Shown: positions 45,588 through 51,808 of the stretch, piece after piece
How positions within the stretch are numbered: the stretch's first letter is position 1
Layout: each line of letters begins with the position of its first letter
NCBI GenBank assembly: GCA_947446645.1
Contig: CANFHA010000010.1
Span: 62,001-126,000, forward strand
Direction: 5' to 3'
DNA from: Chitinophagaceae bacterium
GTDB lineage: Bacteria; Bacteroidota; Bacteroidia; Chitinophagales; Chitinophagaceae
DNA length: 64,000 nt
Notes under the pieces: generated by a model
The model's database searches: none
What the model was told of the DNA's origin: nothing
What the model saw: only the letters and a program-made list of their open reading frames with translations
Translations under genes and position numbers: made by a program

Positions 45588-47186
45588 ATGCTAAAGACGG
45601 ATTTTCTAATAATTGGTTCCGGTATTGCCGGCCTCACATTTGCAGTGAAGACCGCGCGCAAGTTTCCGGAAAAAAGCATAACCATACTTACCAAGGCCAA
45701 TGCCGACGAAACAAATACCAAGTACGCACAGGGAGGTATAGCTGTGGTGAATGACCTGGAGCGTGATAGTTTTAAGAAGCATATACGGGACACACTGATA
45801 GCCGGAGATGGCCTGTGTAATGAGCACATAGTAGATGCGGTAGTGACAGAAGGACCGGAGCGCGTGAATGAGATAATAGAGTGGGGGGCAAACTTTGATA
45901 AGGACAAAGGGGGCGAATATATGCGTGGCAAAGAAGGTGGCCACAGCGAATACAGGATACTGCATTATAAAGACATTACCGGCTCTGAAATAGAACGTGC
46001 ACTGCTGGAAGAGGTGAAGAGGCATCCTAACATACAGATATACAACCATTGGTTTGTGGTAGACATTATAACGCAGCACAACCTGGGATATTTGGTGACA
46101 AAGGCTACGCCGGATATTACGTGCTACGGGGTATACGCGCTGAACCTCAGGACCAATAATATTGAAAAGATACTGGCCCGCTGCACAACTATGGCATCGG
46201 GTGGTGCAGGGCAGGTGTACCGTACTACCACTAATCCGCGTATAGCTACCGGCGATGGTATTGCAATGGCATACAGGGCCAAAGGGCGCATAGAGAATAT
46301 GGAGTTCATACAGTTCCATCCCACAGCTTTGTACGAGGCCGGTGTAAGCCCGTCGTTTCTTATTACTGAGGCTGTAAGAGGCGACGGCGGGATATTGCGG
46401 AATAAAGAGGGTGTGGCCTTTATGCCGGAGTACGACCCTCGTGCTGACCTGGCCCCACGCGATGTTGTAGCCAGGGCTATTGATAGCGAAATGAAGCGAA
46501 CGGGAACGGAGCACGTATATCTGGACTGCCGTGCTATGGACAAAGAAAAATTCACAGCGCACTTCCCTAATATTTATGCGCGTTGCAAGAGCATAGGCAT
46601 AGATGTGTTTGAGCAAATGATTCCGGTAGCGCCGGCGGCGCATTACTGCTGTGGTGGCATAAAAACGGATGAGGTGGGGAGATCCTCTATCATCAATTTG
46701 TATGCGTGTGGAGAGTGCTCCAGCACAGGCCTGCATGGAGCTAATCGCCTGGCTTCAAACTCGCTGTTGGAAGCACTGGTGTTTGCACACAGGTGCGCGG
46801 AAGATATGGCCGCCAGGATAGATGATATTGAATTCAAAGATGAAGTGCCCGACTGGAATGCTTCAGGCACAAGTGATCCTAAGGAAATGATCCTGATCAC
46901 GCAAAGCCTGAAAGAACTTCAGCAAATAATGAGCGACTATGTGGGCATCGTACGTAACGATGTGCGACTGCACCGTGCTATGAGCCGCATAGACCTGATA
47001 CATAATGAAACAGAAGATCTGTATAAGTCAACAACGCTATCACCGCAGCTCTGTGAATTGCGGAATCTTATAACTGTAGGGTATTTAATTGTAAAGGGCG
47101 CACAATTTCGTAAGGAGAGCAGGGGGCTGCATTTTAATACTGACTATCCGTTCAAGAGTAACTTATTGCAACAGGTGGTGTTGTAG
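45588..47186 (+). CDS. nadB: L-aspartate oxidase
   Basis: DFLIIGSGIAGLTFAVKTA...KYAQGGIAVV...ATGDGIAMAYRAKGRIENMEFIQFHPTAL...GLHGANRLASNSLLEALVF. Confidence 0.95.
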   Translation: MLKTDFLIIGSGIAGLTFAVKTARKFPEKSITILTKANADETNTKYAQGGIAVVNDLERDSFKKHIRDTLIAGDGLCNEHIVDAVVTEGPERVNEIIEWGANFDKDKGGEYMRGKEGGHSEYRILHYKDITGSEIERALLEEVKRHPNIQIYNHWFVVDIITQHNLGYLVTKATPDITCYGVYALNLRTNNIEKILARCTTMASGGAGQVYRTTTNPRIATGDGIAMAYRAKGRIENMEFIQFHPTALYEAGVSPSFLITEAVRGDGGILRNKEGVAFMPEYDPRADLAPRDVVARAIDSEMKRTGTEHVYLDCRAMDKEKFTAHFPNIYARCKSIGIDVFEQMIPVAPAAHYCCGGIKTDEVGRSSIINLYACGECSSTGLHGANRLASNSLLEALVFAHRCAEDMAARIDDIEFKDEVPDWNASGTSDPKEMILITQSLKELQQIMSDYVGIVRNDVRLHRAMSRIDLIHNETEDLYKSTTLSPQLCELRNLITVGYLIVKGAQFRKESRGLHFNTDYPFKSNLLQQVVL

Positions 47187-47220: not shown

Positions 47221-50200
47221 CTATTTCTTTAGCTCTACAGTTTCGTCAGCTACTTTTATTACCTCCTTTATGGCATTGTCCAGGTCGTTTACTGCCCGGG
47301 TCATTTGGGGTATTATGTCGTTTGTAAATTCTTCATGATCCAGGAACTCGCTGATGTTTATGGCACCCATTATGCGGGCCAGGGGTTCGCGCATGTAGTG
47401 GGCATTATACTGTATCAGTTCTACTAGTTTCTTGTTGGCATTAGCCAGTTCTGCCGTGCGCTCCGCAATAGTCTGTTCCTGCTCCTCTACCAGTTTCACT
47501 ACTTTGGCTTTTTCTTCCACCACCTGCGCAGTACGTTCGATCACCACTTTTTCCAGTGTTTCCTTTTCCCTTCTCAGCGAAGCAGTGCGCCAGCGGAATA
47601 TAGCAATAGCAGCATATACCAGGGCTAATAGGTACAGGCAATAAGCCCACCAGGTGCGGTATGTAGGTGGTGATACGGTAAAAGTGTAGGGAATCGGCTC
47701 ACTCCATACGCCGTCCGGGCTTTGGGCTTTCAGCTTAAAGGTGTAAGTGCCTTCGCGAATGTTGCCAAATGCTGCCGATGTTTTGTCCGTCACGGTTTCC
47801 CAGTCCTTGTCGTAGCCTTCAAGTATGTATTGATACCTCACCATGTATGGCCTGGCCAGCTCATTGGCTCCGAATTCAAAACTGATCTTATTATGCTTGT
47901 ACGGAAGGACCAGGTGCAACGGTATAGAGTAAAAACGTGTAACGCTATCAAACCTGACCCTGGCAAATTTCCGCACCATCGAATCCCGCCTTTCCGGGCT
48001 TAGGACATTACCAAACGTACGCACCTCTTCGTTAACTAAAGTCAACGAGTCTTTTCTTGCAGCCTTGCCTTTCAAATCGCTCCAGCATACCGGCTCTCCG
48101 TCTATCTTCACTGCGTCCAGGAATATGTGAGGCGTACCATTGTTTTTACGAATGCCGCTGTAGTCAAACCGTACAAGCTTGTCTCCGCTGCCAGCCCACA
48201 CAATGCCCTTGCTGTCTATATACATCGCGTTTGAATTCACATCCTTTACCGGATAGCCGTTTTTGAAATGGTACCTTTCAAATACAGGCTCGTAATTTTC
48301 GGTGAGATCATTGTTGCGGTGTATGTTATCAGCCGGGAAAAGTTTCGCCTCCGCTGCCAGGCCATCGCCCGTCACTTTCTTGTTGCCGGTAAACACAGTG
48401 AACCCATCATTTGTGCCAAACCAGATATTTTTATTGCGGTCTTCTTTTATATTGTAAACTCCGTTGCTTCCCAGGCCATTTGCAGAATTGAAAGTCGCGA
48501 ATTTCTTTCCGTCAAACCAGCTGGCCCCGCCTCCATCTGTGCCTATCCATATATTGCCGCTTTTGTCCTGCCACAGACTCCATACAAAATCACTTCCAAG
48601 GCCATTTGCTTTGGTGTAATTTCTGAAGATGACCTTGCCCTTTGCTCTTGATGCTGCAGCATCGTAGCAGAATACACCACCTCCGCTTGTCCCCATCCAA
48701 ACGTTTCCACTTTTGTCAGCAAGCAGCGTATTCACATGGCCGTTTGTAAGGCCTTGCGGGCTGGAGTAGTTTGTAAACGACTTGCCATCGAAACAGGTGA
48801 CACCGGCACCGTAGGTGCCAAACCATAACTTTCCTTCAATATCCTCAGCGATGCTTGAGAAAGAGGATGCCGGAAGGCCATGCGCCTTGGTGTATGTGGT
48901 AATGCACGCTCCGTTTTTACCTGTTTGTTCTGAGTAGTGGCTGACACCTACGCCTCCTGTGGCAAACCAAATGTCGCCAGTCCGGTCTGCTAATATGCCA
49001 TTTATCACATTTTTACCAAGTCCTTGTGCTGTTGTGTACGTGGTGAAACGCGCCGGGCCGCCGTCTGCCGGAAAAGCCTCGTAGCGGCTTACGCCTGTGC
49101 CATCAGTAGCAAACCACAGGTCGCCGCCTTTGTCCTCTACAATACCTATCACCGAGTTAGCCGCAAGGCCCTGATCGCTGGAATAAGTGGTGAACGCCTT
49201 GCCGTCGTATCGGCAGGGACCGCTGCCAGATGTGCCAAACCAGATACTTCCGTTGTTGTCTTCGCATATACTGAGTATATCATTGCTGGCCAATCCTTCT
49301 GTTACCGTGTAATTTGTAAATGGCCGCGCCCCGGCGCCCGTATCTTTTTGCGGGTCTTAGCAACTCGCACCACTTTTTTCTGTACCGAACCATACCTTTC
49401 CGGAACGTTCACAGAGCAGGCAAAGTATTTCGTTGTCTGTGAGGCCCTGTTCTCGTGTATATGTTGTAAAGGTCTTGCCCCCTGTTCGCAGCCACTCAAG
49501 CGGATCATAGCGGCTTACGCCACCATCTTTAGTTCCAAACCAGATATTTCCCGCTTTATCCTCTGCTATGCACCGAACGTAATTCTGGGCCAGGCCCTGG
49601 GCCGTAGTATAATTAGTGAATACGCTACTTCCCTGGCCTTTTCTTTGTCTCGGGTCAAACTTGCTTACGCCATCGTTTGTTCCAATCCAGAGATTGCCGG
49701 TTTTATCCTCCGCTATTGCAGACACAGTATCATTAGCAAGCCCCTGGGTAGTTCTGTAGTTGGTGAACGGATTTGAGCCAGGCCCTGTATCCAGGCGAGG
49801 ATCATATACGCTAACGCCGTTCCCTGCTGTCGCGAACCAGATCCTGCCGTTTTTTTCCGTTATTACGCAGTTTATTGAGTTGTTGCCCAGCGCGACTCCA
49901 TCAGCTATCGTGGTAAACCTTTTTCCGTCATACCGGCTTACACCTCCGCTTGTAGTGGCAAACCACATGTTGCCGGCCCTGTCTTCCGTTATGCTCACTA
50001 CCTCGCTATGTACCAACCCTTGCGCTGTAGTATAAGTAGTAAACGTTTTGCCATCGTAGCGACATACACCACCACCATAAGTACCAAACCAAAGGCTACC
50101 CGCATTGTCTTTTTTAATACAACTGACAGATGAATACAGCCCGTCCTGCGGCGTATAGTTCGTCATTGGCGCATAAAATCCCGCAGTTTTATGCTGAGGA

Positions 50201-50393
50201 GGGTTGCGCTGAATGGATACAATATTGGGAGGAGGGCAATTTTCCAGCAGGGTGACCTGCGGCGGTTTCAGTGTGTCTGGCCGCTGAGAGGTAATTTCAT
50301 CAGCAGGTTTTCCGTCTTTTTTTCTGTGTCCTCACGGTGGTTGCATGAGATATACAGCACGGTGAGGAGTAAAAAGACGGTCGTTTTTTTCAT
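47221..50393 (-). pseudogene. Two-component regulator propeller lipoprotein (about 14 propeller repeats + Y_Y_Y + TM + HisKA-like helix), disrupted by a frameshift (50317-50323) and a nonsense codon (49357-49359)
   Basis: ORFs 49357-50166 and 47221-49293 lie in the same frame, separated by one TAA plus 21 codons. Upstream frame MKKTTVFLLLTVLYISCNHREDTEKK... joins after an A7 tract if one A is added. C-terminal Y_Y_Y, TM and DHp-like LIQYNAHYMREPLARIMG. Confidence 0.85.
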
Positions 50394-50428: not shown

Positions 50429-51808
50429 TTACTCCTTTTCCTTAGGCTCGTTTATCGTAAACTTCACTCTTTGTATGCGCATTTTCTCTATCGCCAGCAC
50501 GGTAAATTCATACTCTTCCCAGCGAATAACTTCATTTACTGCAGCAAATTTGCCTGATATTTCCAGTATCAGTCCGGCTAACGAATCGCTTTCACCTCGC
50601 ACATTGTCAAATGTGTCTGGCGGCATGCTTATTACCCGGCATACGTCGTTTATAAGCATTTTACCTTCAAATATAAAGTTGCGGTCGTCTATCTTTTTAT
50701 AATTGAGGTCTTCCTCGTCAAATTCATCTTTAATGTCACCAATGATCTCCTCCATGATATCCTCAAGGGTAATGATACCCGATGTGCCACCAAACTCATC
50801 CACCACAATGGCAAAGTGCATGCGCTTCTGCTGAAACTCTTTCAGCAGGTCTTCAATTAGTTTTCCTTCATGTACAAAATAGGCCGGGCGAATGATCTTG
50901 TGCCAGTCGAAGCTGTCGGTATCAATATAGGGTAAGAAATCCTTTGTGTAAAGGATACCAGCTACCTTGTCCAGGCTCTCCTTATATACCGGCAGTCTTG
51001 AGTAGCCGGCTTCCAGGCAGTAGTTACGGACCTCTGAAAAGGTCATATCGAAGTCGATGGCACTTACATCCAGCCGGGTGCGCATTACCTGCCGGGCAGT
51101 GATATTGCCAAATTTCAGAATCCCTTTGAAGATATTTACCTCCTCCCGGGTGGCAGTATGGCCTACGGTAAGCTCAATAGCGTGCTCAAAATCTTCGCTG
51201 CTTATGTTCGATGATTTGGTTCCTATCTTACCTTCTATAAAGCTGGTAGAGTTAACAAGCAGGCGGCTGATGGGAGCAAACACGCCTAACAGCACGCGAA
51301 GGAACGGAGCCGAGAACAGTGCCATACGCAGATTGTTCTGGCTTGCGTATACCTTGGGCAGCACCTCTCCAAAAAGTACCAGCAGAAAGGTTACAAAAAC
51401 AACTTGTATCAGGAAGGCGAAAATCGAATTGGTCTGCTGCGAAAAAGCTGTGCTGATAACAACCTGGTGGTGCCCGTCGTGCGGCAGTATAGAGCTGACG
51501 AACAGGTTGATGGTAATAACTATGGCAATATTTATAAAGTTATTGGCAACAAGTATAGTGGCAAGCAGCATCTTGGGCTGCTCCAGCAATTGAGATGCCA
51601 TACGCGCGCTTTGCTTCTCCTTTGTCTTCAGAAAATAGATATCCTTAGCAGCAAGGGAGAAGTACGCTGTTTCAGCACCTGCTATTACAGCCGACATCAG
51701 CAGCAGTAGTAATATGGCAATAGTAAGTATTGTGGCGTTCGACGCATCAATAGATGATGCCTGAAGAATTAACGATGTAAGATTCGTATCGCCCTCTGTA
51801 CTTTCCAA
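50429..51808 (-). CDS. gldE: Gliding motility-associated protein GldE (CNNM + CBS + CorC_HlyC)
   Basis: DUF21-type TM domain; FGNITARQVMRTRLDVSAID...MHFAIVVDEFGGTSGIITLEDIMEEIIGDI. Confidence 0.92.
   Translation of the reverse strand: MESTEGDTNLTSLILQASSIDASNATILTIAILLLLLMSAVIAGAETAYFSLAAKDIYFLKTKEKQSARMASQLLEQPKMLLATILVANNFINIAIVITINLFVSSILPHDGHHQVVISTAFSQQTNSIFAFLIQVVFVTFLLVLFGEVLPKVYASQNNLRMALFSAPFLRVLLGVFAPISRLLVNSTSFIEGKIGTKSSNISSEDFEHAIELTVGHTATREEVNIFKGILKFGNITARQVMRTRLDVSAIDFDMTFSEVRNYCLEAGYSRLPVYKESLDKVAGILYTKDFLPYIDTDSFDWHKIIRPAYFVHEGKLIEDLLKEFQQKRMHFAIVVDEFGGTSGIITLEDIMEEIIGDIKDEFDEEDLNYKKIDDRNFIFEGKMLINDVCRVISMPPDTFDNVRGESDSLAGLILEISGKFAAVNEVIRWEEYEFTVLAIEKMRIQRVKFTINEPKEKE

Follow-up and report, generated by a model that had tools for sequence, protein, structure and literature searches.

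The window, a 64,000-nt stretch of DNA from a freshwater Bacteroidota bacterium, carries on its minus strand a large sensor gene that is interrupted by an in-frame TAA and, nearer the 5' end, by a net 1-nt deletion. In our view the locus is probably a pseudogene, derived by recent inactivation of a gene for an extracytoplasmic propeller sensor. Both lesions are present in this assembly, and the orthologues at the same locus are intact at the stop site. The TAA lies at minus-strand positions 49359-49357 and is in frame with the ORFs at 50166-49357 and 49293-47221. The upstream open frame (49357..50331, minus strand; ORF called from the ATG at 50166) runs for 324 codons from 50331 to the stop and would encode the first five Reg_prop blades together with most of blade 6. 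The downstream open frame (47221..49356, minus strand) has 711 codons (49356-47224) followed by a TAG, and would encode the remainder of blade 6, blades 7-13, a Y_Y_Y domain, a transmembrane (TM) helix, a coiled coil and a HisKA-like tail. The initial annotation had described the TAA as splitting one protein into two same-frame ORFs, and the frame is indeed open on both sides. It had also listed 21 codons between the TAA and the TTG start called for the second ORF (DPQKDTGAGARPFTNYTVTEG); the count is exact, but the 22nd letter given (L) is the TTG itself. The first ATG is found only 221 codons after the TAA, which is the longest post-stop ATG-free distance among the same-frame splits detected when 1.26 Mb of the genome was sampled; the split is thus more than a chance arrangement of ORFs. 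Placement of the stop in blade 6 was confirmed by the WFGT motif just before it (the sixth of 13), the TAA falling where the blade motif GVSxYDP ends.

Close orthologues are present in only three of the 34 other genomes of the genus (L041 in G005, L042 in G015 and L043 in G001), which marks the sensor as an accessory gene. They share 70-73% (up to 76%) identity with the window protein over nearly the full length and contain no stop; where the window gene has TAA, they read TAC, TAC and TAT. Across 16 relatives the alignment shows Tyr at this position (Y395 of L042) in at least 90%, in agreement with the earlier claim of a conserved aromatic position. In the L042 structure model, where pLDDT is moderate and which served for placement only, Tyr395 ends a propeller strand (391-395). 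A stop on an aromatic position is by itself unremarkable, since 88 of the 357 single-base routes to a stop in the sensor gene (about a quarter) pass through Tyr codons. L041 and L042 have the same gene order as the window (mutY, ssb, CBS-domain membrane protein, sensor and convergent nadB), and L043 matches it on the nadB side; because the gene order is shared, these genes occupy the same locus and are positional orthologues. The synteny anchors in the window are the upstream neighbour at 50429..51808 (minus strand), which we take to be a CNNM/CBS-type, GldE-like membrane protein, and the downstream convergent neighbour at 45588..47186 (plus strand), presumably an L-aspartate oxidase (NadB-like). 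As the positional orthologues are uninterrupted, the stop does not mark a gene boundary. The alignment to intact relatives, which had been proposed as a check, thus agrees with the earlier reading of one sensor gene split in two, and the TTG start, lying within a blade, is an artefact of ORF calling. We concluded that the comparison supports one ancestral sensor gene split by a TAA at a Tyr codon.

The domain content was examined in the read-through protein (1,011 residues counted from 50256). Thirteen Reg_prop stretches (E = 3.8e-70) are followed by a predicted Y_Y_Y domain (PF07495; 47674..47844, minus strand; residues 805-861; E = 2.5e-13) and a probable single TM helix (47590..47661, minus strand; YRTWWAYCLYLLALVYAAIAIFRW), which corresponds to a long helix after Y_Y_Y in the L042 model. 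The C-terminal part (47224..47589, minus strand) is a predicted coiled coil with a HisKA-like tail, in which a conserved His is encoded at 47398-47400 (YNAHYMREPLARIMG); this C-terminal end of the protein is conserved in the orthologues. The tail matches HisKA at E = 0.0086 with 16.6 bits, below the cut-off of 26.9, and the domain search found no HATPase_c in the window protein or in the intact orthologues. With tandem Reg_prop repeats followed by Y_Y_Y, the window gene is, as far as its predicted domains tell, a broken member of the Reg_prop/Y_Y_Y sensor family. A histidine kinase would combine HisKA with HATPase_c, a pair found neither in the window protein nor in the orthologues; judged by domain content the protein is a propeller sensor and not a histidine kinase. 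The earlier name of two-component regulator calls for caution, since the tail is sub-threshold for HisKA and has no ATPase domain. The HisKA-like tail may serve as a module for phosphorylation or dimerisation on which another kinase acts. A tail of this kind (YNAHxxREPLxRVMG with the conserved His, protein-terminal and ATPase-free, Pfam score below the cut-off) recurs across otherwise different proteins of the same genome, in the window at 47224-47649 (minus strand) and also in L124:1142-2383 (plus strand; G000:C22).

A second lesion, missed in the initial annotation, is found at the 5' end of the gene. A lipoprotein-type signal peptide starting at 50393 sits one frame off the propeller, and this orphaned 5' piece (50268..50393, minus strand) consists of the predicted signal peptide MKKTTVFLLLTVLYISC and a linker, 41 aa in total, ending at an out-of-frame TGA. 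MKKTTVFLLLTVLYISC can be aligned to the N-terminal sequences of L042 (MSKNIVFLFLTVLFISC) and L041 (MKKNIVFLLLVTLLISC), both 5'-complete, in which the signal peptide of the exported ectodomain is in frame; in the window it is not. From the ATG to the conserved Pro-Pro codons there are 128 nt in the window vs 129 nt in L041 and L042, so the interval 50265..50393 (minus strand) bears a net 1-nt deletion relative to both complete orthologues. Only these two inform the 5' lesion, because L043 is cut by a contig end and the 150 nt at its start are unrelated sequence from that end; the lesion was judged against L041 and L042 alone. The A7 run at 50317-50323 has no counterpart in the aligned linker region of the orthologues and is a plausible but unproven deletion site, the linker being too variable for placement. 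Upstream of 50166 the propeller frame offers no ATG, GTG or TTG start.

Next, we estimated selection on the gene with a four-taxon codon model. For the whole gene, omega was 0.047 on the window branch and 0.075 on the other branches, and for the part after the stop it was 0.058 on the window branch; these values come from a long branch with synonymous sites near saturation, and the pre-stop part (234 codons) hit the bounds and was left out. Omega = 1 was strongly rejected both overall (lnL -9701 vs -9607) and after the stop (-7008 vs -6951). The sensor has been under purifying selection up to recent times. Because selection acted for nearly all of the window branch, the lesions are either recent or not real; on a branch of this length (omega 0.047-0.058) a recent loss would leave no trace of relaxed selection.

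We also looked for other broken genes in a sample of the same genome (1.264 Mb of 4.71 Mb, in stretches), scanning for long coding frames with one stop and accepting cases by reading each candidate; stop counts come from this coding-frame scan and not from the Viterbi runs, which never cross stops. Seven isolated in-frame stops were judged convincing (∼5.5 per Mb). Besides the TAA of the window sensor, these are a TGA in a short Reg_prop protein (C15:68361), a TAG in a topoisomerase IB (L146, G000:C15:48843, minus strand), a TGA and a TAG in two TPR proteins with class III adenylate/guanylate cyclase domains (L141, G000:C2:274359; L275, G000:C7:131592), and TAA stops in two secreted proteins with sorting domains (C2:117174 and C1:30965). 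The TAG of topoisomerase IB directly precedes the conserved CRKYYVHP motif, at a position that is Lys or Arg in four relatives. Judged by family, all seven stops are in accessory genes. The short Reg_prop gene (L121:1964-3178, minus strand; G000:C15:68361) is the second of its family with such a stop, its TGA lying between 272 and 131 codons. Several other same-frame candidates turned out to be ordinary neighbours, e.g., the kinase/response-regulator pair at C1:210696. The Viterbi runs over the first 464 kb gave one clear frameshift, in an RND-type transporter gene (L132, G000:C2:91925, plus strand). Among roughly twenty closest relatives elsewhere in the genus, broken giant propeller sensors were found in L125 (G004:C12; TGA), L213 (G015:C1; TGA in the cyclase domain) and L245 (G005:C523; frameshift), a count that is a lead only and is uncontrolled for gene length and assembly quality. 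The L125 and L213 sensors are fused to a class III cyclase. The stop-flagged matches at G010:C25 and G016:C174 were gene ends with no lesion, and G010:C31 is a short form that is not clearly broken. Class III cyclase domains are very numerous in the genus (>100 among the matches listed, with many copies per genome).

The best explanation of these results is recent pseudogenisation, since neither the TAA nor the 1-nt deletion is found in orthologues at the same locus. The breakage of related giant sensors elsewhere in the genus fits this reading as well. In sister species the intact protein (∼1,060-1,075 aa) consists of a lipoprotein-type signal peptide, at least 13 blades, Y_Y_Y, a probable single TM helix and, on the cytoplasmic side, a coiled coil and the HisKA-like tail. 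In the window, loss of 1 nt from the 5' linker would have separated the signal peptide from the propeller and a base substitution would have converted the blade-6 Tyr codon to TAA; the inactivation was probably tolerated because the sensor is dispensable. With a propeller that lacks export, an incomplete blade 6 and a remainder without a good start, a functional sensor is presumably not made. The absence of any sign of relaxed selection on the window branch speaks against a pseudogene, and the lesions must for this reason be very young or not real. The other possibility to be weighed is that both lesions are errors of the assembly consensus and the organism itself carries an unbroken gene. Low coverage or quality generates spurious internal stops (Cooley and Wright, PMC11017572), and low-quality assemblies show the pattern seen here, in which isolated stops outnumber the frameshifts found (PMC11017572). 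Strong purifying selection up to the present, a density of isolated stops that is not a low figure, and a 5' lesion that may fall in the A7 run all fit such errors. Random errors, however, would not choose accessory genes in seven of seven cases when so much of the sequence is taken up by core genes, and at such a density one would not usually expect two of them in a single 3.1-kb gene. The rarity of frameshifts (about one clear case in 464 kb) further indicates that this is not an unpolished long-read assembly, and the assembly is a good one, with 98.4% completeness and 32 contigs. We therefore regard assembly error as rather unlikely; the presence of a second lesion, and the fact that such lesions are confined to accessory genes, speak for a real inactivation of recent date, and the lesions are probably real in the cell.

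Readings in which the interrupted gene still works fare worse. Readthrough or bypass of the stop, with the full sensor made at a low, regulated level, would account for coding constraint that is as strong after the stop as in the orthologues, and readthrough has been proposed for in-frame stops with dN/dS < 1 in bacteria (PMC7918605). That argument relied on stops shared between species, whereas the TAA is common to no orthologue. Recoding would be recognised by a stop conserved across species or by a suppressor tRNA; the former is missing here, and none of the 37 tRNAs has a stop-reading anticodon. Nor would readthrough mend the separate 5' frameshift or restore export, and the A7 run has no counterpart in the orthologues; we consider this reading highly improbable. 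It is harder still to credit a gene split into two separately translated functional proteins: two long ORFs are present, but the downstream part starts only at a TTG within the blade, with no ATG for 221 codons, no orthologue is split at the stop site, and both parts are without a signal peptide, so that the downstream propeller part could not be exported. Very unlikely, too, is a scheme in which isolated stops or 1-nt slips repeatedly and reversibly silence the large propeller sensors and cyclases of the genus, the window gene having been caught "off" under selection; if this were true, it would amount to a population-level polymorphism of environmental sensing. The locus gives the impression of routine loss of a sensor that the cell can do without, or else of an error in the assembly, and not of a new biological mechanism.

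For annotation, the two ORFs are better recorded as one disrupted sensor gene than as two proteins, and counts of functional sensors in this genome should leave it out. The isolated lesions in sensors and cyclases of the genus might offer a modest test case for the rate of environmental-sensor gain and loss in free-living Bacteroidota, or for assembly-error screening.

Compared with known systems, the window protein is most like L041, L042 and L043, with the same domain order at the same locus; the difference is that the orthologues are uninterrupted at the blade-6 Tyr and the window gene is interrupted there. The lesions follow the pattern of bacterial pseudogenes formed by single nonsense or frameshift lesions, real or spurious (PMC11017572), i.e., an accessory gene that is intact but for an isolated stop and a 1-nt indel, and no difference from that pattern was found. 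The propeller ectodomain is homologous to those of the Bacteroides hybrid two-component sensors (PDB 4a2l/4a2m, 3v9f, 3ott/3va6; E = 3.5e-55 for 4a2l). Those depositions are named sensor histidine kinases or kinase/response-regulator hybrids, whereas the window tail has no ATPase or receiver domain. The sensor family is thus already known, with ectodomain homologues solved (4a2l, 3v9f, 3ott), and the finding is an ordinary one.
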